This document shows positions 1-60,842 of a stretch of 64,000 nt of DNA, one piece after another; positions within the stretch are counted from its first letter, which is position 1, and each line of letters begins with the position of its first letter. The DNA comes from Adineta ricciae (lineage: Eukaryota; Rotifera; Eurotatoria; Adinetida; Adinetidae), in assembly GCA_905250025.1 (NCBI GenBank), contig CAJNOJ010000313.1:1-64000 (forward strand). The letters are read 5' to 3'. Under the pieces are notes generated by a model that was not told the origin of the DNA, did not search any database, and worked only from the letters and a program-made list of their open reading frames with translations. A program made the translations under genes and the position numbers.

Positions 1-2
1 AA

Positions 3-566: not shown

Positions 567-635
567 TTTTCGTAGTTGATTGTTCAAAATATACGAGTTT
601 TTCTTAGTAATCTTCAAATAAAATCCAGCTGGTAT

Positions 636-1263: not shown

Positions 1264-1269
1264 ATGCAC

Positions 1270-10253: not shown

Positions 10254-10536
10254 CTATCGAATATAATGCTTGGTGCATTCAAAATGTCCAGTCATTTTTC
10301 GTACCAGTTCGGAAGCGAGATGCAGAGGCAGCGTCCGAGCCAGGGTAAGTAAGACCCTTAGACATAAGATCCAAAAGAACAGCTGACAATTCACCATCAT
10401 CATCATTACCTTCAATTCTACACTCGTAGTCGCCATTAGGAAGCCGACGGCTGATGTCGATTTTACCTTTGGGTTCATTGGACTGCGGCAAAGATATGGA
10501 TATTTCTTGCGCGTCTTTTCCTGAAAGAATATTCAC
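10254..10536 (-). pseudogene. Orphan coding tail (right-arm copy)
   Basis: An 85-aa open frame ending TGTKNDWTF. It has the coding-like content RRLPNGDYECRIEGNDDDGE and is about 35 residues longer at the 5' side than the left-arm copy. It could be the last exon of a gene whose upstream exons are lost. No family recognised. Confidence 0.3.
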
Positions 10537-11570
10537 TAGTTTAAAATTGAAGATTACCAGTATTGTAAGAATTATCTATTTCACTTAGTTTAGCAGTGTT
10601 CAATTTTCCTCACGAAACTGCATAGATTCTTTTCCTATCTCATGACTTAAACTGATATGAGAAGGATTTAGATGCTTTCTTTCAAAGTTAGAATCTTGTT
10701 CACAACCGAGAGTATTTATGCACACACAGTATATTCATAATTTGTATCTGATAGGAATGGTTAGAATATATCAAAATGAAGCGAATCTATGAATGTTGCA
10801 ATAATATTGCAGCAATTATTGACAGTCAAACACAAAAATATACCTTAGTATATGAGCAATGAAGGTATATTGACTTTTTTGTTGAACATTACGACAACAA
10901 GTGATCATCTCGTTTCTTAAACTGATATATATTTCTTTGACGAGAAAATTATACACTCAACTAGTACTCGACAAACGGCATCGCTAGTCAACGGTTCATC
11001 TAATCTATTAGACAGACCGAAAGCAAATTTCGTATTCTTTTGTTTAGAAAATCAAGAGTTTGGCAGAATTTACGCGACATATTGGACTTAACCTAACATT
11101 ACCAGTAGCAATCCTTTGCACAATCTGTTACACTAGAACACATTGATCCTCGCCAAGTTCTACAGATATGAACGCACAAACTAACGAGAATACGCAAAAT
11201 CCACTATTATTCCTCAAAGTGTCAAGGTGAACACGTGTTTATCACTGGAAAAATTTGGTTACCTCAAAACTATCACGCTGTCATGTGCGACTTAGTTGGA
11301 GGTGAGGAAGTTTCTCAGTAATAGATAATGTTAATACGAAAATGATTATTCGAGGAAAAATACCGGTTGTAATCAGGTTACAACATTTTTCGCAAATCGC
11401 TACATGAAGTTTTGAACAAGATGGATAAGCCGAAAGTAGAAATCATTTCGAATGGAATAGGTTATATAGAAGAGTAGACTAGAGCCTAAAAAAAGCGTTG
11501 AACTTTATACTGACTGGGATGCACTTTAATGTATTAGAATTTCATATTCAAGTAAGTTATTGAGTTGCTC

Positions 11571-12710
11571 TTATGCAAAAGGGAGAAAAATCTTAATAAA
11601 CATTTGGATCAGGTTGAAGATGATAGTAAAATATGTTGGCTTACGGGTATGCATCTGCTGCAGCTTCAGAAATATCCAATGTCGAGTTTTTCGCTCATCT
11701 GACTCAACAAAATCGACTGTGAAACAGACACCAGGAGATAATAATTCCTCTTCTTCATCTGGAAATTGTGAGAATGGTTGCAGATCCACAGTAAAAGCAT
11801 GCTGAACCTCCATGATAAACAAAGTGTTGCCATACGTCTCTGCAACTTCTCGATTTCTACTGCATGAAGTAAATGCTGGAAAGGAACGATTTGGTCTACG
11901 ACTCTGTAAGCAATCATCCTTGAAAAACGATATTGTCTCTTCTGTTAATTGAGCTCCACGATATAGTATCGTCTTAGGTTTAACTGAATTGTAATTCGAT
12001 GGGCTATCCCATAAGAGTAAACTAAATGGACCCAATGTACCGATTTTACTACGCCAAATGTGTTCGTGACCGGCACTTCCTATTAATCGCATCGTTTCAT
12101 TCAACTTCATGTATAAAAAACTGGTCAAAGAGTAAATATAAGCACAACGCTCCCACACTGTATGCATATCTGCTTCTTTTTTCTTTAACAATAATTCTGC
12201 TATTTTCTCACCTTCAATTTGTTTTCCAAGTAATTTACCTTCTTCAACAATGCCTTGAGCAGCCATCTCCACCAACACGGAGATAATCCTGTTGTCTTTT
12301 GATGGTAATTGTTGTGGTGTAATATTTAAAAATTTCACTGTTTCCTTTATGAATGGTGAAATCCAACCATATGTTCCAGTAAATGGACGTTTAGGATCAA
12401 TAGGAACGAAGGCGAATCGATCTTCCCGAACAGAATAATCGTCTTTGTCGCGTATTACTCGTTTAACAGGGCGTTGCTTCTTTCCATCAGTATTCGAAAT
12501 TTGAAGATTGCAATGAAAATCAATATGATAATCGTCAAGCATCGCGTGCGTTTTATTTGATGCAAATGCTTCTTCAATAATTATATTTTCCACATCAGAA
12601 TATACAATCCATTCCACGATCAATGACTTTGCAAATGGGTTTTTATTCGAATTCCACATCCATTGAACACATGTAGACGACGTACCTGACGAGCCCGTCG
12701 AGCACGCCAT
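11571..12710 (-). CDS. WWE domain + NAD-arginine ADP-ribosyltransferase (ART)
   Basis: Single exon, 379 aa. The N-terminal part (about 14-105) fits a WWE domain: VQWMWNSN, then VEWIVYSD, IIEEAF, and YHIDFHCNLQISN followed by a RPVKR turn. The C-terminal half carries the R-S-ExE signature of arginine-type ADP-ribosyltransferases: LYRGAQL, FPAFTSCSRN, and DEEEELLSPG, where the Glu pair precedes the Ser-Pro-Gly. These enzymes move ADP-ribose from NAD to protein residues; WWE domains often bind poly(ADP-ribose) chains. There is no signal peptide, so it is probably intracellular. The gene is absent from the left arm, with the breakpoint only about 4 nt upstream of the start codon. Confidence 0.85.
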   Translation of the reverse strand: MACSTGSSGTSSTCVQWMWNSNKNPFAKSLIVEWIVYSDVENIIIEEAFASNKTHAMLDDYHIDFHCNLQISNTDGKKQRPVKRVIRDKDDYSVREDRFAFVPIDPKRPFTGTYGWISPFIKETVKFLNITPQQLPSKDNRIISVLVEMAAQGIVEEGKLLGKQIEGEKIAELLLKKKEADMHTVWERCAYIYSLTSFLYMKLNETMRLIGSAGHEHIWRSKIGTLGPFSLLLWDSPSNYNSVKPKTILYRGAQLTEETISFFKDDCLQSRRPNRSFPAFTSCSRNREVAETYGNTLFIMEVQHAFTVDLQPFSQFPDEEEELLSPGVCFTVDFVESDERKTRHWIFLKLQQMHTRKPTYFTIIFNLIQMFIKIFLPFA

Positions 12711-12914
12711 ATGTATCTAAGAGTTAGTTTATCTAGGGTAGAAATAACATAACTCTCATGTTTAGTATGTCAAAAAAATGAATGTGCAGAAGAACTTCTT
12801 ATTTCAAAAGATGTCCGATGTGCTGTCATCAGACATCCTTTTCGTGCTTCAATTTGTTTCGATTAACACACGTACGAACCTTATCAAGTATTTGCACAAA
12901 CATGCTGAAGAACG

Positions 12915-13148
12915 ATGACTTTTTATATTAAACTGGTTAAGAGACAACGGATACGCGCATCAAAGATAAAATTTTGGAGTTCTGTGTGTGACATTCGCAT
13001 TGATAAATTTTGTGGTAGAAAAGAAAGGTATGTTGAAAGAATTTGTGATAGGAATATGTATTATTTAGATGTTCTATTACTGCACATAACTTTGAATAAT
13101 TTTATAAAGAAAAGACTTTTCCAGGTTAGAGAAGAGTGCTTTATTTAG
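12915..13148 (+). CDS. Hypothetical 77-aa ORF (right-arm copy)
   Basis: Mirror of 636-869 with the same length and a few substitutions. It lies tail-to-tail with the DUF1275 gene. Basic, with several Cys; no recognised domain. Low confidence that it is translated. Confidence 0.2.
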   Translation: MTFYIKLVKRQRIRASKIKFWSSVCDIRIDKFCGRKERYVERICDRNMYYLDVLLLHITLNNFIKKRLFQVREECFI

Positions 13149-13217
13149 ATACCAGCTGGATTTTATTTGAAGATTACTAAGAAAAACTCGTATATTTTGA
13201 ACAATCAACTACGAAAA

Positions 13218-13808
13218 CTATACGAAAAACATCGGTTGATCCTGCTGTTTAACTTGTGCAGAATCATTATGTGTAATCAGTGAAACTGTCGTGTTTTGTC
13301 CTATTAGATCATCATCAACTTCATTTGATTGTATATCTGATATACTACTCGTCTTTACAACAACATCGGACACAGTAGCAGAGAATTTTGCAGAACTATA
13401 TAATTCTTCATTCTTCTTTTGTATTTTTTCAATATGAAGATTGGAAATCATTCGACAGTAAGTAATATGTCCTAAACCTAAACATCCCACAATTGCACAC
13501 GGTATTAATATCGCTTTATCATGTAACCATTCATGAGCGAACCAACCAACAACAGCACCAAACAGGAAAGATAAGTATAGAGGTACTAAGATTTTTAATT
13601 TCCACAAGTTTTTACGAGTTCGCTTGTGAAAAACAGCTTGTCCAAGAATAAGTCCGATGTCTGTCATTGTTCCTGTTACATGTGTCGTACGAATAACAGC
13701 ACCTGAATACGTCGTACACATACCATTTTGTAGTCCAAATCCCAAACATACTAAATATGCACTCGGTGATAATGCTTCCCAATGAGAATTCAATGAAATA
13801 TGAACATT
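13218..13808 (-). CDS. DUF1275/YoaK-family membrane protein, 3' exon
   Basis: The exon opens at 13808 after a TTTTTAG acceptor and runs 196 codons to the stop at 13218. It contains the second half of the DUF1275 fold (LGFGLQN, RTTHVTGTMTDIG, several TM segments) and the hydrophilic tail. The upstream part is not convincing: a hydrophobic segment at about 13830-13865 is in a usable frame, but an N at 13822 sits inside the putative intron, so the 5' half may be missing from the assembly. Same gene as 3-566. Confidence 0.75.
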   Translation of the reverse strand, partial: NVHISLNSHWEALSPSAYLVCLGFGLQNGMCTTYSGAVIRTTHVTGTMTDIGLILGQAVFHKRTRKNLWKLKILVPLYLSFLFGAVVGWFAHEWLHDKAILIPCAIVGCLGLGHITYCRMISNLHIEKIQKKNEELYSSAKFSATVSDVVVKTSSISDIQSNEVDDDLIGQNTTVSLITHNDSAQVKQQDQPMFFV

Positions 13809-35114: not shown

Positions 35115-35911
35115 AAATGATTGTACACGAATTTCATTCAATTTGAATAAAAAAGAGCATCAATTCAGCTAATAAGATGAGTAGATGACGCTTTTTCTGC
35201 TGAGTTGTTTATTGGTTAGGCATTCAACTAATGAATAGATGACGTATTGTCATTCATTTCTTCTTGTATGAGTAGAGTACATAGAGAACTCAATAAGGTT
35301 TGCTTTTTCTTCACTTATCGGTGGCAGTTTGTCTGACAAAAACAATCACTTTCAGGGTAATTACCACTTTCATATGTAGAAAAACTATCTTCTCAAATGT
35401 TCACCGAGCACACGATTATCTTTACTGAAATTTTTCTTTTCTTCGCTTACCGATGCAAATTTCGAGTTATTTAAGTATCATTCGAAGTGCATTCATCCTT
35501 GTATTTTTGTTTCTCATTGGAAAAATAGGATATTGATCGACGGGTTGACACATTCGATATGAAAACAAAACATACACTTTTTGACTATCACATGATTAAT
35601 TATTTTCAATGATATATATAAAAAGAAAAAATATGTTTGATTAGACGAGCGTGTTGGGTAAGATAGATAAATACTGAAATTCTGATGCATATTTTTCAGT
35701 AGAATGCGAACGAAAATAGTAATATCCTTGAAGTGTATGCCGATACAAACTAGTATACTTATTATTGAAGGAGAAGAACATTATTTTGATGAAATTTTGT
35801 CCAAATAATACTTTCGTAAGCTGAATATTCGAAAATGAGTTTCTCTGCTTTTAGATTGGTCGACAAACGGTTCAATTGGATTGAATCTAAAAGAAATACT
35901 ATCTTTCGTCA
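35115..35911. other. Intergenic region
   Basis: About 800 bp, AT-rich, with no ORF or RNA gene recognised. It includes the putative promoter of the NTPDase gene. Confidence 0.4.
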
Positions 35912-36354
35912 ATGTCTACAGTTGCCACTGCCAGTTCATATTTTGAAGAGCAATCAGTCGAACCTCAAATTCGTCATCGATTAGTCAAACCAGTTGAAAA
36001 CAAGATGATACCATTATTCACTCGTCGTTACACATCGTCACGTAGTTTCTACTCAATTCGAAATCTTTTATTTATTCTGATCTTCATAACCTTTGTATTT
36101 ATCCTATACTCATCTCTATCATTATCTCCGTTACTTCGTTTTCTCGATCCGTATTCTTATGTATTAGTGATAGACGCAGGTTCCACTGGAACGCGTATTC
36201 ATGTTTATAAATTTCGTGCAGCGACTGACAATGAGAATGGTGATACATTTGTGCTAAAGAATGAAGTGTTCAAGGAACGTAAACCCGGTTTATCATCATT
36301 TGCTGATCAAGTCGATGGAGCTGAAGATCAAATTGATGAATTATTAAAAATTGC
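35912..36354 (+). CDS. NTPDase (GDA1/CD39 family), 5' exon only
   Basis: It encodes a cytoplasmic tail, one TM segment (FYSIRNLLFILIFITFVFIL) and the first apyrase-conserved region (YVLVIDAGSTGTRIHVYKF), the phosphate-binding loop of the actin/ASKHA fold. It then stops at an N (36355). Downstream sequence belongs to another gene, so the other four apyrase regions are missing from this assembly. Ecto- or Golgi-NTPDases hydrolyse nucleoside di- and triphosphates. Truncation is most likely an assembly join. Confidence 0.8.
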
Positions 36355-36355
36355 N
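36355..36355. other. Assembly join between two unrelated genes
   Basis: A single N. On its left the reading frame is NTPDase; on its right is a splice acceptor (ctgcag) and a DsbA-type exon. The missing interval contains the NTPDase 3' part and the DsbA 5' exon. Confidence 0.8.
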
Positions 36356-36969
36356 CTGCAGCTTGGTGTTACGTTGGCAAACGTCGTTTGGAGAAAGCAC
36401 TGTCTCAAATTGACTCGTCACGTGTTAATGTTTCAGTATCATGGCATGCTTATGAATTAGATCATGGTTTACCTCGAGATGGTTCACTTCTCAAGATGGA
36501 TCGTTATAAACAAAAGTTTGGTGAAGCACGTATTAAACAAATGTTACCAACAATGATGGAAACAGGAAAACAAGAAGGAATTCAATTTTCATTTGGTGGA
36601 AAAATTGGCTCCACTTTTGATTCACATCGTCTTCTTTATTATGTTAAACAACAAGAGAATGGTGAACAGAAACAGAATGCTTTGATCAATGTTTTATTTC
36701 GTGCTTATTTCGAACAAGAACAAGATCTAGCTGACCATCAGGTTTTAATCAAAGCGGCTGAAGAAATTGGACAAGATGGAAATCAAGTAAAACAGTTTCT
36801 TCAATCGGATCAATATAAAAAAGAAATTCAAGATGAAATCAATCACAGTCAACAAGAGGGAATTTCCGGTGTTCCACATTTCGTTATCAATGACAAAGTC
36901 GAACTGAGTGGTGCACAAGATCCTCAGCAATTTCTTCAAGCTTTTCGAAAAGCTGGCATTGCTTTTTAA
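36356..36969 (+). CDS. DsbA-family (FrnE-like) thioredoxin-fold protein, 3' exon
   Basis: After a ctgcag acceptor the exon encodes WCYVGKRRLEKAL, the second half of the CPWCYVG active-site region of FrnE/2-hydroxychromene-2-carboxylate-isomerase-like DsbA proteins. It continues with YELDHGLPRDGSLL, LINVLFRAYFEQEQDLAD, and the cis-Pro loop SGVPHFVIND, ending at 36969. The 5' exon with the first Cys-Pro lies beyond the N. These proteins are oxidoreductase-like, and many are bacterial. A decayed copy is at 45675-46105. Confidence 0.8.
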
Positions 36970-40822: not shown

Positions 40823-40835
40823 TATTCGCGTCTTT

Positions 40836-41364
40836 GTTGAATCAAAACCACATGCAATGATATCTTTTGCATTTTCATATGCATATCGATTGGCATCCTC
40901 AATTGTTATGTCTTTCCAGAGAAACTTTTCATCGTCAGTCATCTGAATGACCAATGGAACATCAAACACATCTTGTAACCATCTATAGAAATCATCATTA
41001 GAGTCTCTGTTTGTTCATAGTGGCGTTTTCTTCTTACTTGGTCATGATGAATGGAATTAAATGACCAAGATGCATGGCTTCGGATGATGGACCACGACCA
41101 GTGTATAAGAAGAATGGTTTCTTCTGTTCATAAGCATTGAGAATCAACTCGAGATCTCTAGAAGGAAAGAGAGGAAAAGATGATGATGAAAAAGAGCAAA
41201 AGTTTTGAAATGAACCTGTGTGAGAAGAAGATGCCTCGTCGAATGAAATAATGAACTGGTCTTTTGATGATTGATTCGATACGTGCAATTAATTCAGGTG
41301 AAATCTTTGATGAACCAAAACGACCTTCGATTAACCAAAAAAAATCGATTTCATTGAAGAATTG
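40836..41364 (-). pseudogene. Tryptophanyl-tRNA synthetase gene fragment
   Basis: A near-identical copy of 47198-47720. It covers the exon with [19 protein letters not shown] and the next with [17 protein letters not shown] and [10 protein letters not shown]. The remaining exons are missing, so it cannot make a synthetase. The copy ends abruptly on both sides. Confidence 0.85.
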
Positions 41365-41936
41365 TCGAATCGAAAGATAGAGCCGGATCGGTAGTTTTCA
41401 TTCTTTCTCTTTTCTTTTGATTCGACTTTGCACAGAAGAAAAGTCGTAGTCAACCTATCTACTTTCTTCGTTTATTTCGTGTTGTTTTCTATCTTTCTCT
41501 TTCTGTTGTATGGAAAACGTCGAAGGGAGATGTAACAGGAGAGAAAGAGAAAGTGAAAACCATCGCCTATTTTAACTTGATATCAGTATCTACATGTCTA
41601 TTATTGGTCACGGACGACAACACGAAATTCGTTCAAACAATGATAGCAACAAAAGGCAACGTACCCAGATTATTGTGGCTCGGTTGGTTCCGACCGATTA
41701 AGTTCGCTTTCAGACGACTTCCTTGCTGCCGGAAGTTCAAACGAAGTTTCCGGTTACTTCCTGACCATTTCCTAAAGACTTTGAGCTGGAAACAGTCAGG
41801 AATTGACCGGACATCTCCTGTAAATTTCCGACCGAAACCAACTCAAGTTCAAACGGATCTAATCACCGGAATGATCGACCTGAGTATGTATAAAATCGTT
41901 TTCTTTCGAGAAATCTTTGATTTTGTTGAAATTTAG
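41365..41936. other. Repeat-like stretch
   Basis: It contains a GC-richer block (about 41662-41870) that begins TACCCAGATTATTGTGGC and has GGTTCC/CCGGAA words. The block resembles the CCCAGG MITE family, but no matching far end is found. The 127-aa ORF over it is not a credible protein. Confidence 0.35.
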
Positions 41937-46195: not shown

Positions 46196-47861
46196 TTAAT
46201 AACGGAAATTGAGTTGTCTTGGTGTCATAAACTGACGAACAACATCCAATGTTATCTCTTTTCGACGTTCTTGATGTTTAGCAACTAAACCTTGTAAAAC
46301 TTCGATTAAGATCTTTTTCAATTCACCAGTTAATAATTTTCCTGATGAATAATCCTAAACGAGAGCAAATCATCAGATGTTGAAGATCGAATAAAAAAAG
46401 AACATTTACTTGACGAATTTGTTCAAGTCGTTCATCATCTTCCATGAAATATCGAAGATATTGATATGAAACATCAACGTCACAATCACCACCTTTAGCT
46501 CGATGTTCTTCGATTGTTTCTTTTCCGCCACTGAACGCATGTTTATTAACCTGAAGAAGAAAGAAAAATGATGAAAGATCGAAAGAGATTTCTATGACAA
46601 AAAAGTTACTTTGTCTTTGACTTGTTTCGGTGTGTCAGTGAGAAAAATAGCTGAATTTGTATCCGATGCAGCCATTTTCGATTTGGCACCTTGAAGTGCA
46701 GGAAAAAACGTTGAATGCATCAATGCTGGTTTGGGAAAGTTCAAACGTGGTGCAACATCACGAGTCATACGAAAATATGGATCCTATCCGAAAACATAAC
46801 ACAAGTTCTGTTCCATTTTAATCTTCTTACTTGATCAATAGCGCATGGAATCAAACAAGCAAATTCTTGTTTCAATTTTTCACCGAATATAAATGGAAAT
46901 GATGAACTAACACTGGGTGCAGCTTGAATTGCAGGAAAAGCAATCTTTCCAATACAATCACTTTCAGTAAAACCAAAAATGCCTATTATTAATCGAAAAT
47001 GACATCATGATCATCAGTTTTTCGAAGTTTACCTTTCACTTGATTGAATGTGACACTCTTTTGAATTCGACAAATGTTACGATAGAAGTTTGGACATTGA
47101 CTAATTTGTAAAAGAGACGAGAGGTAATGAAACTAATGAGTTGATGAAATAACTTACGCCATAAAATCAAAATCGGAGAAAATAAATGTCTTTGTGGGAT
47201 CAAAACCACATGCAATGATATCTTTTGCATTTTCATATGCATATCGATTGGCATCCTCAATTGTTATGTCTTTCCAGAGAAACTTCTCATCGTCAGTCAT
47301 TTGAATGACCAATGGAACATCAAACACATCTTGTAACCATCTATAGAAATCATCATTAGAGTCTCTGTTTGTTCATAGTGACGTTTTCTTCTTACTTGGT
47401 CATGATGAATGGAATTAAATGACCAAGATGCATGGCTTCGGATGATGGACCACGACCAGTGTATAAGAAGAATGGTTTCTTCTGTTCATAAGCATTGAGA
47501 ATCAACTCGAGATCTCTAGAAGGAAAGAGAAGAAAAGATGATGATGAAAAAGAGCAAAAGTTTTGAAATGAACCTGTGTGAGAAGAAGATGCCTCGTCGA
47601 ATGAAATAATGAACTGGTCTTTTGATGATTGATTCGATACGTGCAATTAATTCAGGTGAAATCTTTGATGAACCAAAACGACCTTCGATTAACCAAAAAA
47701 AATCGATTTCATTGAAGAATTATAGAATTGATTAACTTACGAATCAACTTATCATAATCAATTCCTTTGTCAGAGGTACTTGCCACATTCCATGGATCAA
47801 CGATGTCTTCAACTTCTTCGGTTGTGTTTTGAATTGCTTCTTCTGCGACTGGAAAAGACAT
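46196..47861 (-). CDS. WARS1: Cytoplasmic tryptophanyl-tRNA synthetase
   Basis: Multi-exon gene. Start at 47861 ([12 protein letters not shown], then [10 protein letters not shown] and GIDYDKLI), next [15 protein letters not shown] and [13 protein letters not shown]. The class I signature region follows as [20 protein letters not shown] (TGRGPSS-x-x-x-HxGH; HIGH equivalent HLGH), then [20 protein letters not shown] and [13 protein letters not shown]. Later exons give the KMSAS-like region ([16 protein letters not shown] ... [21 protein letters not shown] in place of KMSASD). The C-terminus ends [15 protein letters not shown] at 46196. It charges tRNA-Trp. No WHEP domain is seen. It looks intact. 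Confidence 0.88.
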
Positions 47862-48568
47862 TCTGAAATTAAGTTAAAACATTCCGTTAGATTCTTTCTC
47901 ATTTTATAGTCCGTCGATTGCATCAAACATCTGTCATCAGAAAAAGGATCTTGCATCAGATTAGTTTAAACAGCAAATGAGAATGAGGTGTGTATTTCGA
48001 GTTGATACTGATTGGTGATCTACGTATCCCGTAATACGACGGTGAAACGTTTTTCATTCATTGAATTCTGCAAAACAAGACATCTGTTTTGGTTTACCTG
48101 AATAATAATCTGGCGGGTGGATTACATGTATATTAATTCGACCGAAATTTATAGATTATTTAAACTCGATAGATGTCACTAGAGGGCTATTATAAGAAGA
48201 GACGATGAGCGCACAAATCTCGAGTTGAAAAACGAAAAAGTTTGTCGCCCATTAATGTGTGTCAATGATTTCTATTTTCTATGTAAAACTGATAAGATAT
48301 GCATACAAAGTCGAACCACTAGCTAAGCAGAGATTAAGGTGGTCGCAACCGTCTAGACATTTTCGTTATGTATTTCAAATGTACATGATCAATGAAAATA
48401 GATGTGCAGCTAATTGATAAATTCCACAGCATATGCATAACAGAACGGTGTTTTTAAGTATCATCAAAATATTTAGATTTGTCTCCAAATATTCGCTACA
48501 GTTTATTTATGGAGATTTCTCGATTAGATTATTTATAAAAATGTAGAAAAACTATCTAAACGCTTAAT
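47862..48568. other. Intergenic region
   Basis: About 700 bp without a recognised gene, between the WARS1 start and the 3' end of the RdRP-helicase gene. A 70-aa ORF (47744-47956) is only an extension of the WARS1 first exon. Confidence 0.5.
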
Positions 48569-51500
48569 TTATCTCCGTCGTCGATTGGAATTTCGATATT
48601 GTGCTTGATGATTTGAAGAAGGTTGCTGTACATTGACTTGCTTTGATAAACAATTTTGGATAAATTGATCTGCATTGATATTTGGTACACTTTCAATCCA
48701 TTGTTTCCAAAGAGAATTTGACATCAGGGTTTTTCTATTTCCGAAAACGATCATTGCTCGTTTTGCTCGCGTTAAAAGCACATTCATTCGTTGTTCGCTG
48801 GTTAAAAATCCAATCTCGTTCTCGTCATTTGATCGCACTAATGAAATGAGAATGATCTCCTTTTCCCGTCCTTGAAAGCCATCAACTGTTCGAACTTCGA
48901 CACCTTTCGGAGTCGTGTTCAATAGTTTTTCAGCTATCTCCTTGACTTGTTTTGTATACGGTGTAATCACCCCAATATCCATTCTAAAGAGAGAAACGAC
49001 AATCGTTTATGAAATTCGTATAGGAGTATCCCTTACGGAGATAAATCTGGTTTCTGTGAAGGTAATAGTGTTTGAATTGTCTGGCAAACCATCTCCACTT
49101 CTCGTTTATTATAGATATTTGACCCCTGAAGTGTCTCAGAGCCTTGATCAACATCAACAAACATCAATGGAACCTTTGGATCAATAAATTGGATTTCTTT
49201 TGGCGTCGGTCTATCTTCAGGTGTAACACCACTTCGTAGGAGATTCTTATAAAACATACGCGATGGAAAATCGATCAATCTCGGGTGCATTCGGTATTGG
49301 GTGTTTAACATGATCGAGCTAATACGAACATTTTCTAACAAACGTTGGAAGAATGATCGTTCTAATAATTGTTTTGCTGCAGTCATTTTGATAATAGGTG
49401 GTAGCTAAAACAAATCATTCAGTTGTCTTAAATATTCAGAGGAAGAAGTGTACTAACTTGCTTTTGATCACCGACAAGAACAATTTGATCGGTAATTCGT
49501 ACTAATGAAATGAGAATATTTGGTTCAGTAATTTGAGATGCTTCGTCAATCAAAATGAATGGAAATTTCAACGATGGTTCTAAGATTCCAACACCGGAGC
49601 AAGTCATACATAGAATCTGACAGTTCGACAAAACTTCGCGGATTTCTTTCGGTCGTGGTGGACCAAATAAAGATTTGGATGGAAGATTTGGATTTGATTT
49701 TTGCTTTTCACGTCGAATCAATTCAATCTGCCGAGGCATTGTATATTCCTAAACGAAAAGGATCTATTCGAAATGTTCAACGTCGGATGAGGAATCCTCA
49801 CGTGAAGATCCGGAGCCACGGTTCGCGGTTCTCCATATCGAACTAGTCGATACTGGTATTTAATCAATCGTCGCGTTAGATTATCAACTGCTTGGTGTGT
49901 TTCAGCACAAACTAAAATCGGTTGGTTGTCTTGTGCAAAATTTCTCAACCATAGATGAATGATCCATGCTGATGTTTCTGTTTTTCCAGTTCCTGGCGGT
50001 CCTTGAATCAATGTTAAACGATTTTCAAGTGCATTTTCAATCGCCTGTCGTTGGCTGTCGTTCAAATTTGCTTGTTTGTATTCATTATCATTATGGAACT
50101 GATCTTCGAGTTTCTTCACCTTTTCTTCGGCATAGTTTTTCAATTGATCACTGTTGAGATCATCAGATAAATTCAACAATGGTTTAATGATTAAATAATC
50201 TTGATTATCAATGAGTTTTTCAAATGCGTCAATTGATCGATTCAATGTGACGAAGTTCGGTAAGCGTTCCAAACGGAAGAGTTTTTGACGATTTAAATAA
50301 TTGTTATTCGTTAACGAACTGGGAAAATATGGGAATTTGATTTGCAAAATTGGATGAATACTTAAAATAATTCCAAATGATTGATAAAATAAACGTAATG
50401 GTGGTTTTTCATCAGTTCGATTCTGTTTGCCGAGATAATCATTCAACTCTTCTTGATCGATCAATGCAATTGAATCACCGATATTGAAATGATGCGAAGG
50501 AATTTTTTCATAATGATATTCTTCGAATTGAAATATCGCCTCGTTATTTTCTTCAACGTTACTTTCGTCGTCATTCTAAAATGAAATCAAAGTGGTTCAG
50601 ATAAATGTGTGAATTCGATTCGCGAGGAGGTCGAGTTTGACGTACGTTCGTCTGTGTGTCCTCTTCATCGTTTTTCTTCTTTATGAATTTTGCTCGTAAA
50701 TTGAGAATCGTTTCGCCATTTCGAATCAAAATCTCTGGTTTTAATCGAATTCTTCTATCGATTTCGTCGAGATCGTAAACCGTTGTTCGAACAATCATCG
50801 ATAAAAACTGTTTTATATAGTCGATTATCGCAGGTGAATGTTGCTCTTGGTTCGACATGGAAAGATTTAATAGACTGTCGAGAAATTTCAAACAAATGTC
50901 CGAGTCCTTCGTCATTAGACACGAACGAATNGTTTCGCCATTTCGAATCAAAATCTCTGGTTTTAATCGAATTCTTCTATCGATTTCGTCGAGATCGTAA
51001 ACCGTTGTTCGAACAATCATCGATAAAAACTGTTTTATATAGTCGATTATCGCAGGTGAATGTTGCTCTTGGTTCGACATGGAAAGATTTAATAGACTGT
51101 CGAGAAATTTCAAACAAATGTCCGAGTCCTTCGTCATTAGACACGAACGAATTAAATCAATCAGTTGTTTCAATGTTAATTGAATATTTGTTAGAGAAGA
51201 AATTTCTGAAAGATAATTTAAGGACACGTCATCTGTGTTGTAATTGTTTCCTAATAATATGGATAAGTATAAATGGTAGATGAATTCGTTGTTGATCGAG
51301 TAAAAATGATCGATGTCGTGAAAATTCTCTTTGAACAAACGTTGCAATATTCTTCCTAAGTACGGAATGTACGATGGTTGACTTTTATCTTTGAGTTTTG
51401 AGTTCAGTTTTTTCGTTGATTGAAAGAGCTGATTGAAAATCTTTGCATTTTTGTTTTCAATATGAATGAAGGAAATGATTAAATCGTGAAACCAACTTTC

Positions 51501-54500
51501 ATCGATAGATAATCGATGAATCGAACCATTCAACATCGAGTGAATCTCTCGGAAAAAATAATTGAGAATTTCCTCATTGATCATTTCCATATCCACATGA
51601 TTATCCTTTAAATAATTCCATATTTTACACAGATATTCCGTGTCATGAACTGACATGAAACTTTTCAATAAGTTCTCCGCATTTTCCAATGAAATCTTTT
51701 CAAATTCTGTTTGAAATTCTTTTCGTTTCTCTTCCATTCGCTTTTGTTCATTCTTATATTTTTCTTCTTCGTCTTTATCTCTATAAGCAAGATGTGAATG
51801 TGCAATGCGAAAGAATCGATCGAGAACGTGTAACTTACTGTTCGGTCAGATATTCAACGTATTCGTAATTTTCAACTCGCGGATTGAAATAGTTCTGTGT
51901 AAAATATTCTTCGTCATAATAACTGATGATTGGATAATAACTCGACGAGATTTGTTGATCGTTTGATAAGACAAAGATTTCGAAATAATGAAATTCATGC
52001 CGATTGACTTTCGGATGTTGACGTTCGCGTAAAATATTTCGATCGAATCGAGTTAAATCCACACTAATTATCTTATTTTCTTTATTTGTGTCATACATGA
52101 AAACAATAAATGAATTGCGGGGATCGTTTTGATAAATTTGTAGACGATCTTCGCTTATTTTAATGAAATAATCATTATCGAAAAGAAATTTTCTTCGAAT
52201 TGAATACAATTTTGATTCCAGATATGCATAACAAAGTCCTAAAAACAATCTTTTGTTTTTATCTTAAATGTGAACGAGAAAAAAAGGTTTTACCTGCTCG
52301 AATTTGCCATAAAGTCGATGATTGATTTGAATTTATTTGTTCAGTTACTAGAGAAAGGGCATTTTGGTAAATATCCAAAACTAATGTAAGGGTATCATTA
52401 ATTGAAATACAAATTAACGTTCTTTCATGTGAAGAATTCTGTTTTAAAACATAAATCATCGGTTGAAATGTTTGTTCATATTCAATTTGAGATTCCATTT
52501 GAAATAATTTCGGAGATGTGTAGAATAATCTCCATGATAATGATGTTTGAGACAAATGATACTTGTCGATCAGGTCATTCGATAGAATTTTCGATTTATT
52601 CAAGATTGAGTAGAGATATAATCGAGGAATTTTCAAAGACAGTTCAATGTCTTGTTTTTGTTTCATTGTTAGTTGACTGAAATCGAACAAATAAATGAAA
52701 GTTCGAAGAAGTTCATCGGAGTCTTCCTGCTCATTAATCCACTTTATTGTTGAAACGATCAACTCATATTCATTCAACGATTGAGTATTGTTGTAAGTTA
52801 ATAATGATGGACATCGCCGTTCATAGAAGATGTTCAATAATGTAGTCTTGGATAGACCTGTATATCGATTTTCAGTAAGTAATTTCGTTTGAAATTCATC
52901 ACGAAATTTCTTCGCATTATTCAACATTTTCATCCAAACATATTCTTCTCCTTCAGCTGTGTTGCTTCCTAAATGAACCTTCGATGTTCAATGAGACATT
53001 CGGAATTAGGTCGGTACCTGCGGTGGTTGTATTCGATGATTCTTCGCTTCTTGGCGGTTTTAATTCGGCTGGAACGCGAATCTTTTGTCCAGTTTTCGGC
53101 GCATCGACCGCTTGAGAAAACAATTCCGCTAATCTCCGACATTGTATGGATTGCACTCCTAAACGATTTGCCCAGTAATTGTAATACTTATCAATTAAGC
53201 CCGATTGATTGTTTTTCTGCGCACTAGCGAACTGAGCTATGCGATCTTTTCTTTCGATCAACGCTGATTCCTGCGCTTTTGCAGTTGAACTATAGTCCAT
53301 TGGCTTATTGATCTTTTTCGGAATTAGATCGTTGTCCCAACAAATCAAATACTTGTCGCCATCTAAATCACTTCCAGCCTGACGAAAGCGATCTGCACAT
53401 TGATTAAATCGGAAGAAAATTGCAGACTTACGATTTCGTTCGGACGCGGACGAGCGCCGTTTGTTGAGAAAACGACCACATCGTAGAGATGTTCCAATTG
53501 TTTGTATGAGGTTAATTTTAGAACGAGAATGTCCCCTAGATGATAACTGGGAGATTTGGCCACGAAACAAATTTTCGAATCGAGCATCAGTTGTCGTCCG
53601 TTGAACGTCGGACGAAAATAAACTTCATCGGGCTTTAAAATTCCGTCTAAAGATGAAATCAAGCAGTGGATTGAAGAGAAAATAAAAGGGAAACGAACAT
53701 GGATCACAAACTCCAAAGGCTAAACGCGATTTTGTTATGGGAATTTTCAATTTCTCCACCGATTCCAACGCCTTTTTCTGCATTGATTGCACTTGTGTTT
53801 GAACAACTTCGATATTATTCGCCAACAAATGATGAACTAAATCGATTCGATCGAAATAAAGGCAATACTTCAAAGCGATATTCATATCATCACACATATG
53901 AACAATATCTCGGAAGGATTCTTCTTGTTTCTTGAGAAATATTTCATCTGGAATGTTCAATCCAGACAGAAGAATGATGAATTGTTTGATAAGAAAGCCA
54001 AGTCTCGGTCCGGAGTATCCATCATCGCACACGCATAAACAAGTACTTATCGTTCCGGTGAATTTCTTCATCGATGGACGAACTCGAATGGCATCGTCAT
54101 TATCGTCATCATTGATCATCAGAACACCTGAATTCTCGTTTTCGAAAAGAAGGTTTAGGAGAAAATCGATTGCAATTACCTTTATAACCTTGATAACGAA
54201 TTTGAAATGCGCAGGGACACGGATTTTCTTCGTGGGAGTTATCTTCATCTATTGTCAACATTGGTTTTTTGAAACCAGATAAATACGGAACGATTTCCTT
54301 TGCTAATTTTCGACCAATAATTCCACAACTAGAATATAATTTCAGGAAGACTTTTCTTTGTGTGAAAAAAATGCGAATTTACCCATCAGTGAAAGTGTAT
54401 CCATTTCTTTCGACATCATCGATATCGACAACATGATCCGATTCGATGTGAATTGATGGTGTACAACTTGAAAATAAAAGTCCAATTCGAGCAACACGTT

Positions 54501-55734
54501 TGCTTAAATTCTTGATCTTCTGAAAATCTCCATTATCATTAAGTATTTTTTCTATTTCATCGATTGGTCCAGCATATAAATAACAAGATCGACTTTTTAG
54601 TTGACTGTTGCTATGACCAATAAAATGATAGATTTCATCATTGATTCGAACTACATTGGATAAAACCTGCTCAACAAATTCATTATCCAATTTTTGGTCA
54701 AAAGCAATAGAGAGAAATTTATTTTTTGAACACGATGGATCGTATTTTTCTACTAAACGATTCGCATCATATTTCTCATAGCTAATTCGAAGATTTTGTT
54801 TATCTAAGATCCCAATGTAACGTATACAACTCGAATCTTTCGGTTTGTCCAAGTGGAATGGCAAACATAGCGGGATTGACATTCCGGACGATGACCAATG
54901 AAATCGACCATTGATATGTTCATGAATAANAGAGAGAAATTTATTTTTTGAACACGATGGATCGTATTTTTCTACTAAACGATTCGCATCATATTTCTCA
55001 TAGCTAATTCGAAGATTTTGTTTATCTAAGATCCCAATGTAACGTATACAACTCGAATCTTTCGGTTTGTCCAAGTGGAATGGCAAACATAGCGGGATTG
55101 ACATTCCGGACGATGACCAATGAAATCGACCATTGATATGTTCATGAATAAATTCAACACGCTTGGTCATATCAAGATCAGCTATGACGAAGTACGGTAA
55201 CTGCGCTTGCTGGTACCAATATTCTAAAACTTGAGTATACTCAACTTGTTCTCGATAGCTCGGTACGATTCTCATTCCATCATTTTGTGCTTGTAGTTCT
55301 TCTTGTGGTTGTACGATAAATATCAAACCAAGTCGACATTGATCAATCAAGTGTTGAAACGTTGGGGCGTCGAAAATTCTTTGTGCACTTTGCTTATCGT
55401 TAAGATAGAGATTAACATATGCTAAGGCATCGAAACCAGATCGATCCGATAAGTAATTAGATTCTTTGTGTTTATCAAAGTAAGATACTTGTTCCTTAAT
55501 AATCTGTTCCTGTGTTCTGCAAAATGCATTCGAATTCTTTGTTTGAATATAGTGTTGCAAATCTTTCCCAGTCAGTTTCAATCGATTAAGAACAGTACGT
55601 GCAACTTCTTGAATACGCTGAAATTTCTTATATTTCAACTTTTTATCTTGACTGAAACGTTGTATACACTCGTCGACTAATGTGGATTTACCAACCGATG
55701 ATGCCCCTGATATAATCACATGAATTGGAGACAT
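48569..55734 (-). CDS. P-loop NTPase-RNA-dependent RNA polymerase-UPF1-like helicase fusion
   Basis: Predicted exons, 5' to 3': 55734-54383, 54328-54180, 54127-53699, 53646-53432, 53378-53018, 52968-52294, 52238-51839, 51780-50646, 50575-49802, 49748-49458, 49404-49037, 48983-48569. Every junction keeps frame. Without two 222-nt join artefacts (N at 54930 and 50931) this gives 2,039 aa. Residues 1-200: AAA_28/Ttd14-like P-loop NTPase (SGASSVGKST, YLSDRSGFDALAY). About 280-900: cellular RdRP (IGHSNSQLKSRSC, VARIGLLFSSC, FTDGCGIIG, FQIRYQGYKGVLM, FGVCDPYGILKPDEVYF), active site AGSDLDGDKY at about 642-651. From about 1500: SF1 helicase with GPPGTGKT (about 1616), FILIDEASQ, GDQKQLPP, QYRMHP, VRTVDGFQGREKE, VLLTRAKR. 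Likely role: making dsRNA in RNA silencing (inference). Confidence 0.85.
50710..51152. repeat. 221-bp exact direct repeat around N at 50931 (assembly overlap)
   Basis: 50710-50930 and 50932-51152 are identical and separated only by an N, inside exon 8 of the RdRP-helicase gene. The protein repeats from IRSCLMTKDSD to ILIRNGE. Because 221+1 is a multiple of three the frame survives. Best read as two contig ends that overlap and were not merged. Confidence 0.9.
54709..55151. repeat. 221-bp exact direct repeat around N at 54930 (assembly overlap)
   Basis: 54709-54929 and 54931-55151 appear identical across an N inside exon 1. The repeated protein runs from IHEHINGRFHW to KNKFLS. It has the same length as the repeat at 50710-51152 and starts with the same word (AGAGAGAAATTT) that follows the N at 57644. 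Confidence 0.9.
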
Positions 55735-56617
55735 TGATTCTAAATAGAAAGAATAAATTCACTAGCTTTGGTTTTGCTACGGGTCTTATGTTCTGGTAAT
55801 AACAAAAAAATCTGAGAGGTATTCTATTCTACAAAGTATACATAAAGTTAATCAAGAACGAATCTTAAGACCCACTGGATTAAGCTGTAGCGACATTTTT
55901 CGATCCATTTCCTTGTTTTTTTTTGTCTTCCTCTCATCTATATCTTTTTTTCCGTATATGCGACCTCGTCGTTCTTTTTCTTATATATGTGATCATTGAT
56001 TGGAGAAAATAAAAAGCGCAACGCCATCAAAGTTGACAACAACTATATGCGCTGCTCGATAGGACTGACAGTTGAAATTATATATTTGAGATGAAATTTT
56101 GCATCCAAGGTAGACTAAGTTTCTATATTTTTCCCAGTAAAAAACTTGAGTCGATAAACTAAGCAAATTTTAAATAAGAAATGAATGAAAGATAGAGACA
56201 AAGTTTTCAATAAGTTAAATCTTACTAAAAAAAAATTCAAAACATACTTAGTAAAAGCCTCCGATGAGTGAAATGGAAAGACTCGTTTTATGGCTTTTCT
56301 ATTTGAGTAAGGTAACACGCTTCTTTGTTTGTATTGAATAAATAAGCAGAGAGAGAGAGAGAATAAGTGTCACTTGTTTTCGTTCTACATATATATAGAT
56401 ATGCAGGATGACTCATCACATTCCTTTAATAAGGCTTGTGAGTATTATGAAATTCTTTTGGGAAAAAACCCAGTGATGCTATTGAACCAACAGTAAGACT
56501 TCAGCATGACCCTGATCGTGTGAAAGACCTATGATGCACGAAAGAAAAGAAAAATATGGTCTGTTTCTTCTTTAGAACGACAGATAACATGAATTTATTG
56601 ATTCAAATAGAAAACCT
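55735..56617. repeat. Intergenic region, copy A of tandem duplication
   Basis: The region between RdRP exon 1 and the P450 copy A stop. It is nearly identical to 58449-59360 apart from small indels and substitutions. It includes a (GA)n run near 56350 and a TATATATAG stretch. It probably contains the RdRP promoter. Confidence 0.8.
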
Positions 56618-57643
56618 CTATGTAGATCGCTTTTCGATAGACATGTATCCAGGATCTGTTGGTTGTTGTGCAATATCCCAGCGTGTTTGTAGTTCTTCTA
56701 AAGTTTTTGTTCCATTAGCGCGTTTAAATGAATAGTTCAAGATCAATTTTGCGATGATAACTTCCATTTCAACTTTCGCCAACCATCTACCAACGCATTC
56801 TTTTGGTCCAATCCCGAATGGAAGGAAAACATTCTTTTCCGAGTTTGTATTCGACAAATCTTTATCTTCAACATTGATTAAATCAAATTCATCCGGCTTT
56901 GAAAAGTCTTTCGATTTTCGGTGCATATCAACCAGATTAATGATGATATTTGTACCTTTTTCAATGGGAATGTCGTTATAAATATCGTCTTGGATCGCAC
57001 ATCTCATAATAACAGGACCAACGGGTTTAAATCGCATAGATTCTTTTAGACCATTGATGAGAATTGTATGAGAGTCTTGTTTTAGTTCTTTTAATAAATT
57101 CTTCTCTAAATCTTCTCGATCCGAAAGTGCGAGAAGAAAGTAAAACATAGTAACCGATGATGTATCCGTTCCAGCGATAAGCATTTCCAGAACACATTGA
57201 TTCATCTCCTGTTTTGTGATTTGATTTTCCTCGAGAGCGTGAAATAATGAATTGATAAATAAACAATTTTGACTTGGATCTCTTTGCGAAATGATTTCTT
57301 TGACCACTTCATTCAAGTCTTTCACTGACTGTTCATGTTTTGCCGTTAAATGATGTTTATAGAATTCCATCGGTTTCAATAGAAAATATTCCCAGGCTTT
57401 AAAATATTGAACAATCGAATTAACATAATGTTTTGTTTTCTCAATTGGAATTGATCCAACAGGTAAATCAAGAAACAAATGACATGTTATTGTAAATGTC
57501 ATTGCACGTAAAAGATCCATTGTATCAACAACATTCGCTTGAATCTCAAATTGATTCAAATGTTTTAACACGTAATCAACAGCATCATTGGAAATATATT
57601 TCGCATCATCTAATATTTTACTATTTAAAGATTTTTGAAAGAA
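56618..57643 (-). CDS. Cytochrome P450, 3' part (copy A)
   Basis: 342 codons ending at 56618. It is the C-terminal two thirds of the P450 also present complete at 59361-60842. It carries the I-helix AGTDTSS, the ESMR of ExxR, and the haem loop FGIGPKECVGR. It is cut at its 5' side by the N at 57644, so the N-terminus is missing here. It differs from the other copy by a few residues (for example EITSQRD versus EIILQRD), so it is a real second copy or allele. Confidence 0.85.
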   Translation of the reverse strand, partial: FFQKSLNSKILDDAKYISNDAVDYVLKHLNQFEIQANVVDTMDLLRAMTFTITCHLFLDLPVGSIPIEKTKHYVNSIVQYFKAWEYFLLKPMEFYKHHLTAKHEQSVKDLNEVVKEIISQRDPSQNCLFINSLFHALEENQITKQEMNQCVLEMLIAGTDTSSVTMFYFLLALSDREDLEKNLLKELKQDSHTILINGLKESMRFKPVGPVIMRCAIQDDIYNDIPIEKGTNIIINLVDMHRKSKDFSKPDEFDLINVEDKDLSNTNSEKNVFLPFGIGPKECVGRWLAKVEMEVIIAKLILNYSFKRANGTKTLEELQTRWDIAQQPTDPGYMSIEKRST

Positions 57644-57644: not shown

Positions 57645-58448
57645 AGAGAGAAATTTATTTTTTGAACACGATGGATCGTATTTTTCTACTAAACGATTCG
57701 CATCATATTTCTCATAGCTAATTCGAAGATTTTGTTTATCTAAGATCCCAATGTAACGTATACAATTCGAATCTTTCGGTTTGTCCAAGTGGAATGGCAA
57801 ACATAGCGGAATTGACATTCCGGACGATGACCAATGAAATCGACCATTGATATGTTCATGAATAAATTCAACGCGTTTAGTCATATCAAGATCAGCTATG
57901 ACGAAGTACGGTAACTGCGCTTTCTGGTACCAATCTTGCAAAAATTGAGTATACTCAACTTGTTCTCGATAGCTCGGTACGATTCTCATTCCATCATTTT
58001 GTGCTTGTAGTTCTTCTTGTGGTTGTACGATAAATATCAAACCAAGTCGACACTGATCAATCAAGTGTTGAAACGTTGGGGCGTCGAAAATTCTTTGTAC
58101 ACTTTGCTCATCGTTAAAATAAAGATGAACATATGCTAAGGCATCGAAACCAGATCGATCCGATAAGTAATTAGATTCTTTGTGTTTATCAAAGTAAGAT
58201 ACTTGTTCCTTAATAATCTGTTCCTGCGTTCTGCAAAATGCATTCGAATTCTTTGTTTGGATATAGTGTTGCAAATCTTTCCCAGTCAGTTTCAATCGAT
58301 TAAGAACAGTACGTGCCACTTCTTGAATACGCTGAAATTTCTTGTATTTCAACTTTTTATCTTGACTGAAACGTTGTATACATTCGTCGACTAATGTAGA
58401 TTTACCAACCGATGATGCCCCTGATATAATCACATGAATTGGAGACAT
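57645..58448 (-). CDS. P-loop NTPase-RdRP gene, 5' part (copy B)
   Basis: 268 codons from MSPIHVIISGASSVGKST. About 97% like the start of the gene at 55734, with scattered substitutions (for example YVHLYFND versus YVNLYLND; QFLQDWYQKA versus QVLEYWYQQA). It ends at the N within the start of the RdRP region (NKFLS). A second copy therefore exists with the same NTPase-to-RdRP transition, which supports the fusion as real. Confidence 0.85.
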
Positions 58449-59360
58449 TGGTTCTAAATAGAAAGAATAAATTCACAAACTTTGGTTTTGCTACGGGTCT
58501 TATGTTCTGGGAATAACAAAAAAATCTGAAAGATATTCTATTCTACAAAATATACATAAAGGTAATCAAGAACAAATCTTAAAACCCACCGGATGAAGCT
58601 GTAGCGACATTTTTCGATCCATTTCCTTGTTCTTTTTTGTCTTCCTGTCATCTGTATCTTTTTTTTCGTATATGCGACCTCGTCCTTCTTTTTCTTATAT
58701 ATGTGATCATTGATTGGAGAAAATAAAAAGCGCAATGCCATCAAAGTTGACAACAACTATATGCGCTGCTCGATAGGACTGACAGTTGAAATTATATATT
58801 TGAGATGAAATTTTGCATCCAAGGTAGACTAATTTTCTATATTTTTCTCAGTACAAAAATTGAGTCGATAAACTAAGCAAATTTTAAATAAGAAATGAAT
58901 GAAAGTTAGAGGAAATATTCGATATGATGACAAAGTTTTCAATAAGTTAAATCTTACTAAAAAAAAAAATTTCAAAACCTACTTAGTAAAAGCCTCCGAT
59001 GAGTGAAATAGAAAGACTCGTTCTATGGCTTTTATATTTGAGTAAGGTAACACGCTTCTTTGCTTGTATTGAATAAATAAGCAGAGAGAGAGAGAGAGAA
59101 TAAGTGTCACTTGTTTTCGTTCTATATATATATATGCACAATGACTCATCACAGTCCTTTAACAGGATTTGTGAGTACTGTGAAATTCTTTTGGGAAAAA
59201 ACCCAGTGATGCTATTGAACCAACAGTAAGACTTCAGCATGGTCCTAATCGTGTGAGAGACCTATGATGCACGTAAGAAAAGAAAAATATATGTAAATAT
59301 GGTCTGTTTCCTCTTTAGAATGACAAGTAACATGAATGTATCGATTCAAACAGAAAATCT
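58449..59360. repeat. Intergenic region, copy B of tandem duplication
   Basis: Near-identical to 55735-56617, with a longer (GA)n run and small indels (a 20-bp insertion near 58915). It links RdRP copy B to the complete P450. Confidence 0.8.
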
Positions 59361-60842
59361 CTATATAGATCGCTTTTCGATAGACATGTATCCAGGATCT
59401 GTTGGTTGTTGTGCAATATCCCAGCGTGTTTGTAGCTCTTCTAAAGTTTTTGTTCCATTAGCACGTTTAAATGAATAGTTTAAGATCAATTTTGCAATGA
59501 TAGCTTCCATTTCAACCTTCGCCAACCATCTACCAACGCATTCTTTCGGTCCAATCCCAAATGGAAGGAAAACATTCTTTTCCGAGTTTGTATTTGACAA
59601 ATCTTTATCTTCAACATTGATTAAATCAAATTCATCCGGCTTTGAAAAGTCTTTTGATTTTCGGTGCATATCAACCAGGTTAATAATGATATTTGTACCT
59701 TTTTCAATGGGAATGTCGTTATAAATATCGTCTTGGATCGCACATCTCATAATAACAGGACCAACAGGTTTAAATCGCATAGATTCTTTTAGACCATTGA
59801 TGAGAATTGTATGAGAGTCTTGTTTTAATTCTTTTAATAAATTCTTCTCTAAATCTTCTCGATCCGAAAGTGCGAGAAGAAAGTAAAACATTGTAACCGA
59901 TGATGTATCTGTTCCCGCGATAAGCATTTCCAGAACACATTGATTCATCTCCTGTTTTGTGATTTGATTTTCCTTGAGAGCTTGAAATAATGAATTGATA
60001 AATAAACAATTTTGACTTGGATCTCTTTGCAAAATGATTTCTTTGACCACTTCATTCAAGTTTTTCACCGACTGTTCATGTTTTGCCGTTAAATGATGTT
60101 TATAGAATTCCGTCGGTTTCAATAGAAAATATTCCCAGGCTTTAAAATATTGAACAATCGAATTGACATAATGTTTTGTTTTCTCAATTGGAATTGATCC
60201 AACAGGTAAATCAAGAAACAAATGACATGTTATTGTAAATGTCATTGCACGTAAAAGATCCATTGTATCAACAACATTCGCTTGAATCTCAAATTGATTC
60301 AAATGTTTTAACACGTAATCAACAGCATCATTGGAAATATATTTCGCATCATCTAATATTTTACTATTTAAAGATTTTTGAAAGAAATTCGCACGTTGGT
60401 ATTTCCATCGTTGAACATTTCGATTCCAAATAATTCCTCGATGTTCCATTCCTAAATATGCTAAACCTAATTGATTTCCAAATCTTAATGTATAGTTTTT
60501 TCCATTTCGCCGCAAGATATAATCAGCGAAATCAGCATTGGATATGATTATTGTCGGTTGATTGAAAAGATTGATTTGAACAATATCGCCATATTTAGAT
60601 GTGTAATATTGGGATGCTAATGGAACAGTTAGTTCAACGTAGTGAAACGATTCGGGGAAGAAACGTTTCAACAGGTTTTTTCGACGGGTTTCATCGCGTA
60701 GTTTAAGAATGGAGAAAAAGAGAAAATTCGGGACAAATCGTTTCGGTTTTGGACCGGGAAATCTTTTCTTTTCAGTTGAATAGCGTAATAACACATAAAT
60801 TGTACTGAAAAATATAATAATTAATATACCGGTAGTCAACAT
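59361..60842 (-). CDS. Cytochrome P450, complete
   Basis: Single exon, 493 aa. It begins with an ER-anchor TM (ILIIIFFSTIYVLL) and a Pro-rich hinge (RFPGPKPKRF). It has a WxxxR-like C-helix (WKYQRANFF), I-helix LIAGTDTSSVT, ExxR (KESMRFKP), a PERF-type segment (KPDEFDL), and the haem loop FLPFGIGPKECVGR with the Cys ligand. All landmarks of a membrane-bound monooxygenase are present. The lack of introns is unusual for an animal microsomal P450. Substrate unknown. Confidence 0.9.
   Translation of the reverse strand: MLTTGILIIIFFSTIYVLLRYSTEKKRFPGPKPKRFVPNFLFFSILKLRDETRRKNLLKRFFPESFHYVELTVPLASQYYTSKYGDIVQINLFNQPTIIISNADFADYILRRNGKNYTLRFGNQLGLAYLGMEHRGIIWNRNVQRWKYQRANFFQKSLNSKILDDAKYISNDAVDYVLKHLNQFEIQANVVDTMDLLRAMTFTITCHLFLDLPVGSIPIEKTKHYVNSIVQYFKAWEYFLLKPTEFYKHHLTAKHEQSVKNLNEVVKEIILQRDPSQNCLFINSLFQALKENQITKQEMNQCVLEMLIAGTDTSSVTMFYFLLALSDREDLEKNLLKELKQDSHTILINGLKESMRFKPVGPVIMRCAIQDDIYNDIPIEKGTNIIINLVDMHRKSKDFSKPDEFDLINVEDKDLSNTNSEKNVFLPFGIGPKECVGRWLAKVEMEAIIAKLILNYSFKRANGTKTLEELQTRWDIAQQPTDPGYMSIEKRSI

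Follow-up and report, generated by a model that had tools for sequence, protein, structure and literature searches.

The 64,000-nucleotide (nt) stretch of the Adineta ricciae genome analyzed here (contig CAJNOJ010000313.1, positions 1 to 64,000, hereafter the window) carries a minus-strand gene predicted to encode a protein of 2,039 amino acids (aa) that combines a P-loop kinase domain, a cellular RNA-dependent RNA polymerase (RdRP), and a UPF1-type helicase of superfamily 1 (SF1). The product is probably a single protein that belongs to an ancient RdRP-helicase family of opisthokonts, in the variant with a NadR/thymidylate-kinase-like domain at the N terminus, and that makes double-stranded RNA (dsRNA) for silencing. 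What this study contributes to that reading directly is the domain order, the intact catalytic motifs, the relatives with the same order, and the placement on one side of a supported branch of the RdRP tree. The form with the kinase appears to represent a conserved variant of the known RdRP-helicase family, so far unreported within the literature searched.

Gene model and assembly repeats

The coding gene runs from 55734 to a stop at 48569 in 12 exons, with no internal stops in the exon model. All 11 introns are of the GT-AG type and measure 49 to 70 nt, and retention of any single one of the 11 leads to an early stop. The exon model bears out the initial annotation, which had described 12 exons and one gene for one polypeptide, open throughout. 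Intron length had been given there as about 52 to 72 nt.

48569 to 55734, minus strand: whole coding gene (exon model; junctions backed by protein alignments of relatives)
55734-54383, 54328-54180, 54127-53699, 53646-53432, 53378-53018, 52968-52294, minus strand: exons 1 to 6
52238-51839, 51780-50646, 50575-49802, 49748-49458, 49404-49037, 48983-48569, minus strand: exons 7 to 12
48502 to 48507, minus strand: possible poly(A) signal AATAAA (TTTATT on the plus strand), 62 nt beyond the stop; the word is frequent and by itself no evidence
54709 to 55151, no strand: perfect 221-bp repeat on both sides of the N at 54930, a presumed contig-overlap artefact within exon 1
50710 to 51152, no strand: perfect 221-bp repeat on both sides of the N at 50931, a presumed contig-overlap artefact within exon 8; the A. 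ricciae protein P0002 has one copy
57645 to 60386, minus strand: further copy of 54931-57643 at 95% identity, which includes another kinase-domain start (58448) and a P450

An isolated N occurs at 54930 and another at 50931, each with an exact 221-bp repeat on either side. A literal reading of the gene yields 2,187 aa and leaves one base unread at each N; the length of about 2,039 aa claimed earlier is obtained once one copy of each repeat is dropped. Equal, error-free 221-bp overlaps of contig ends point to the residue of a k-mer assembler, and each repeat would then be one stretch written twice.

Support for the junctions comes from predicted proteins of relatives. Four exon junctions (aa 377, 427, 570, and 641) lie inside well-aligned blocks against A. 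steineri and Rotaria proteins, and the remaining 7 of the 11 are crossed without gaps by P0002, which aligns to aa 668-2039 with 96% identity and zero gaps. At the junctions at aa 762 and 1424, protein length differs in A. steineri and Rotaria, though P0002 is gap-free there. Because P0002 is gap-free over aa 668-2039, the second repeat (N at 50931) is absent from the gene. The first join (N at 54930) is passed by two residues by another A. ricciae protein, P0121, a 100% match over aa 1-270, and proteins of A. steineri and Rotaria continue across it.

The AATAAA hexamer occurs 168 times in the window against 148 expected, a count reached by 6 of 100 shuffles. The copies on the gene's strand within coding exons, such as those at 52081 and 52332, are thus no sign of an internal gene end. 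A scan of 50400-52300 for bacterial-type promoters and terminators gave 5 and 1, where shuffles gave 7.8 and 1.1, a result of little meaning in an animal, and a megablast of 48569-50569 against plasmids returned zero matches, as expected of a eukaryotic gene.

The kinase-bearing 5' end recurs at 57645-58448, within the further copy listed above. The first arm (54931-57643) ends in 221 bases that are repeated exactly at the end of the second arm (57645-60386), and the P450 is truncated in the first arm and complete in the second. The second arm is most likely the other haplotype, placed in tandem by the assembler, so that the kinase-domain start at 58448 probably does not mark another gene. A point against the haplotype reading is that the arm starts diverge from base 122 on, so the second arm lacks the full 221-base overlap. 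A true tandem duplication was considered and judged less likely, given that the units end exactly at Ns, share the 221-base end, and carry one cut and one whole P450. When the haplotypes are compared over 268 codons of the kinase part, 22 codons differ, 13 of them silently (dN/dS, 0.17); the kinase part is under purifying selection, with small numbers.

Domain composition of the predicted protein

Pfam AAA_28, RdRP, AAA_11, and AAA_12 all match in the order that the initial annotation had proposed. The motifs that it had named are in place as well: SGASSVGKST at aa 9-18, AGSDLDGDKY at aa 642-651, GPPGTGKT at aa 1616-1623, and VLLTRAKR at aa 1970-1977.

55165 to 55719, minus strand: NadR-like P-loop kinase domain, aa 6-190; SGASSVGKST at 55710-55681, SDR at 55449-55441, lid NDGMR at 55284-55270
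53055 to 54987, minus strand: cellular RdRP catalytic region, aa 250-749 (exonic parts); DLDGD at 53369-53355
51780 to 53024, minus strand: C-terminal extension of the RdRP, aa 760-1120; matched by blastp in part of the relatives
50069 to 51779, minus strand: linker and pre-helicase region, aa 1121-1593; blastp matches in bdelloids only, with length roughly constant across the family
48731 to 50068, minus strand: SF1 UPF1-type helicase, aa 1594-1986, with AAA_11 and AAA_12; GPPGTGKT at 50002-49979

The N-terminal domain, previously proposed to be an NTPase, is indeed a P-loop domain, and its assignment can be narrowed to a NadR/thymidylate-kinase-type kinase fold (AAA_28 at aa 6-190; E, 1.2e-14). 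Alignment places both the Walker A motif and the lid (DDG.R in NadR), and both are conserved; the NadR motif positions follow the consulted part of PMC7221760. In contrast to the ribosylnicotinamide kinase NadR, which has a DTD Walker B and an NMN adenylyltransferase domain, the rotifer protein has the kinase-like part alone, with SDR aligned to the DTD of the Lactococcus lactis NadR-type protein. The NadR profile is matched in its kinase half only (positions 165-324 of 325), and no Pfam match to an NMN adenylyltransferase domain was found in the predicted protein. TTD14, in the excerpt of its description used here, consists of a P-loop domain followed by a CYTH domain, whereas the rotifer protein has no CYTH match in Pfam. 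The catalytic-type residues of the kinase domain are kept from sponge to rotifer, with an identity of 23-33% over the kinase part in three-domain relatives outside the named bdelloids. When the kinase part alone served as the protein query, 14 matches were obtained, the organism-named ones all bdelloid; this search was restricted to shared words and lengths, so other relatives may exist.

The RdRP assignment rests on a Pfam PF05183 match at aa 250-749 (378.3 bits against a cut-off of 23.8; E, 9.4e-113) and on the DxDGD catalytic motif, present as DLDGD at aa 645-649. The core has the RDR/QDE-1 polymerase fold, and the structure model aligns to RDR2 (7roz) from residue 276 onward only. Plant RDR2 and Neurospora QDE-1 thus resemble the rotifer protein in fold and catalytic motif and differ in the N-terminal part. 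To our knowledge, neither has a helicase or kinase domain.

For the helicase, AAA_11 matches from aa 1594 (E, 1.9e-38) and AAA_12 at aa 1793-1986 (E, 1.1e-60), and the nearest solved structures in the Protein Data Bank are those of UPF1/NAM7. The SF1 core with AAA_11 and AAA_12 is common to UPF1 and the rotifer protein. They differ in the N-terminal zinc-binding CH domain of UPF1, for which the rotifer protein gave no Pfam match at E values up to 1.

Relatives and history of the family

A full-length protein search returned 555 relatives, and domain order was examined in the best 120 of these by blastp placement of segments of the window protein on each. Kinase, RdRP, and both helicase halves follow one another in 26 of the 120, and RdRP followed by both helicase halves is found in 92, including P0002, whose model starts late. 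The two others are Rotaria socialis P0003 (kinase, RdRP, and first helicase half) and the partial record R. sordida P0004 (kinase and RdRP alone); no other domain order was found among these best 120. The named three-domain proteins, all predictions, come from Adineta steineri, the sponges Ephydatia muelleri and Dysidea avara, and the hydrozoan Hydractinia symbiolongicarpus, and share the order of the rotifer gene; the Rotaria records are truncated. Most of the two-domain proteins with an organism name are fungal; Dendronephthya (a soft coral) and Bradysia (a fly) are represented as well. A third search found the two-domain form in Anneissia (a crinoid), together with many relatives of the same RdRP type in which the helicase segment was undetected, possibly incomplete models. 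The distance from RdRP core to helicase has a median of 707.5 aa in the 92 two-domain rows and is mostly 677-781 aa in 27 kinase-bearing rows (extremes, 519 and 868 aa). The initial annotation knew of no single protein in this order, a view contradicted by the 26 relatives, sponges and Hydractinia included. The order RdRP then UPF1-type helicase is common in fungi and published for Fusarium RdRp5.

In fission yeast, the RDRC complex consists of Rdp1, Hrr1, and Cid12, that is, RdRP, helicase, and nucleotidyltransferase as separate proteins, whereas the rotifer RdRP and helicase form one predicted chain. A Dictyostelium RdRP carries a helicase in the same chain, but of the Dicer type (SF2), unlike the C-terminal SF1 helicase with AAA_11 and AAA_12 in the rotifer. 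Hrr1 is needed in RNA interference (RNAi) heterochromatin, according to the portion of PMC11237814 consulted. The closest published counterpart is RdRp5 of Fusarium graminearum (FGSG_09076; P0061 in our set), for which the consulted sections of PMC11237814 and PMC4515635 give the order RdRP then helicase, report participation in exonic small interfering RNA (siRNA) production, and state that deletion lowers ascospore discharge to 47.6% of wild type. Like the rotifer protein, it has RdRP then AAA_11/AAA_12 in one chain and lies on the fused side of the RdRP tree; unlike it, RdRp5 has 1,721 aa and no N-terminal kinase domain, and the RdRP cores are 37% identical. An amphioxus RdRP with AAA_12, BL02069, was described in 2019 (PMC6396948, Fig. 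1 legend); compared by description only, it shares RdRP and AAA_12, and a kinase domain is unmentioned in that passage. For bdelloids, expanded RdRP and Argonaute sets have been reported, and the authors speculate on transposon defence; the main text of that article, in the part seen, does not use the word helicase (PMC7943196). In our literature search, PMC11237814 was the sole paper with PF05183 and PF13087 together, and none was found with PF05183 and PF13521, subscription papers being mostly outside that search. Literature searches, mostly without subscription papers, listed no report of the kinase-bearing RdRP-helicase form.

The RdRP-core tree comprises 85 rows, the window protein and 84 of 252 proteins picked to spread groups, with classic RDRs as the outgroup. 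A branch with an SH-aLRT of 98 separates all helicase-fused rows from plant RDRs, animal RDR1-like proteins, and the bdelloid RdRPs P0244 and P0245. P0241 (Trametes), labelled classic, stands on the fused side beside Cubamyces. The order of the deepest forks inside the fused side is tentative. As a side observation, the insect record P0040 (Bradysia odoriphaga), with the two-domain form, groups with fungal-side rows, which may reflect transfer, contamination, or an unsampled animal line.

The tree bears on whether bdelloids retained the gene from early animals or gained it by horizontal transfer. The latter is the less likely reading. In its favour, bdelloids often acquire foreign genes (PMC7943196, in the part seen), and the family seems to be scattered unevenly over the animals named among the listed relatives. 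However, bdelloid rows are not nested among fungal rows, and a single clade of bdelloids with the sponge/hydrozoan rows is not rejected (p-AU, 0.638) and has a likelihood 5.3 higher, for a group that was named after the tree was seen and to which four rows lacking a detectable kinase segment (P0018, P0032, P0057, and P0136) had been added.

Proposed role and setting in the window

The RdRP would use single-stranded RNA as the template for dsRNA that enters small-RNA silencing, a role suggested by analogy because the fungal relative is reported to act in exonic siRNA production. The earlier idea of an all-in-one machine for dsRNA synthesis stands insofar as one polypeptide holds both RdRP and UPF1-type helicase and plausibly makes dsRNA. 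UPF1 moves 5'-3'. A tethered UPF1-type motor, if it does the same, could strip proteins from the template; alternatively, it could unwind structure ahead or work before loading. As the polymerase reads its template 3'-5', such a motor would fit best on the opposite strand ahead of it, or before loading. The kinase domain would bind ATP or GTP and most likely act on a small nucleoside or nucleotide, or gate the polymerase by nucleotide state. We infer, less firmly than the copying role, that the N-terminal domain provides nucleotide-dependent control or a small-molecule kinase step.

A bolder proposal, which we regard as rather unlikely, is a metazoan kinase-polymerase-helicase RNA replicase. 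Here, an active kinase would replace the usual N-terminal part and feed or gate copying (e.g., by nucleotide or NAD-metabolite level), and the UPF1-type motor would work beside the polymerase like the separate polymerase and helicase of coronaviruses. The whole would have been kept from early animals and be running in asexual bdelloids.

Several points weigh against a dsRNA-making member of an old fused family. The window gene and its relatives are known as sequence predictions, the activity of every domain is likewise predicted, and the kinase substrate is a candidate only. The silencing role is transferred from a fungal relative that has no kinase domain. Relatives without a helicase count against a universal RdRP-helicase link: 14 of the 85 rows lie on the fused side of the RdRP tree with no helicase segment, so the helicase may not always be there, or these models are short. 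Among such relatives, P0138, P0139, P0141, P0144, P0151, P0153, P0162, P0163, P0165, and P0174 (800-1,010 aa, helicase segment undetected) group with Dendronephthya and Anneissia. RdRP and helicase path lengths correlate across 48 proteins with an r of 0.95, a value in which shared descent is uncontrolled. In the unrooted helicase tree, the Gigaspora pair P0034 and P0035 joins animal rows (fork at 99), unlike in the RdRP tree. On balance, the data suit, and do not prove, one fusion long inherited as a unit.

The protein might also work outside RNAi, in RNA surveillance (UPF1-like and linked to nonsense-mediated decay [NMD]) or in making or sensing antiviral dsRNA. We judge this improbable. UPF1 is the nearest helicase among solved structures, deletion of the Fusarium relative enriches ribosome-biogenesis genes among changed genes, with NMD raised by the authors (PMC11237814, sections consulted), and a role outside RNAi has been suggested for amphioxus RdRPs, one with AAA_12 (PMC6396948, in part). 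Set against this are the unmatched CH domain and the bdelloid RdRP and Argonaute expansion with its speculated link to transposon defence. A dead kinase domain, a structural remnant merely replacing the N-terminal part of plant RDRs, is still less probable: the domain does occupy the place of RDR2 residues 1-275, but its catalytic-type residues are kept from sponge to rotifer and purifying selection is seen between haplotypes (22 differing codons). That two or three adjacent genes were misread or misassembled as one is very improbable, for although Ns with repeats lie inside exons 1 and 8 and the gene is known from prediction, P0002 spans the RdRP-helicase part, A. steineri P0001 and Rotaria P0003 span all parts they hold, P0004 and P0135 span kinase to RdRP, and sponges and Hydractinia have the same order, with a similar RdRP-to-helicase distance across the family.

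Other features were noted in the window. Near the 3' end of the fusion gene, a minus-strand piece at 46592-46783 matches class I tRNA synthetases (W and Y). A 544-bp direct repeat, 98% identical, lies at 40830-41373 and 47188-47731. The regions 1-3398 and 8301-13777 share inverted sequence: three long parts of 1-3131 reappear in reverse orientation at 13777-8464, 96-98% identical, and a weaker match reaches 73%. This palindrome-like layout, near an N at 13822, is possibly another assembly or haplotype effect. A reading frame with WWE and NAD:arginine ADP-ribosyltransferase domains lies at 11571-12716. At 35891-36969, the start of a CD39-type nucleoside phosphatase meets an N at 36355 and is followed immediately by a DSBA-like thioredoxin frame (E, 3.1e-35), a join that possibly reflects an erroneous scaffold link.

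In the usual picture of silencing, RNA is copied by an RdRP that separate helicases assist. Here, RdRP, helicase, and a kinase-fold module are predicted in a single chain, which is shared by bdelloids, sponges, and a hydrozoan and is found without the kinase in fungi, a soft coral, and a crinoid. Such a distribution suggests an old RdRP lineage alongside the classic RDRs. It would offer a fixed polymerase-helicase pair that can be purified, and raises the question of what use a NadR-like kinase is to an RNA polymerase. It may also help to sort the large bdelloid RdRP set, for which a role as transposon guard has been speculated (PMC7943196, in part).
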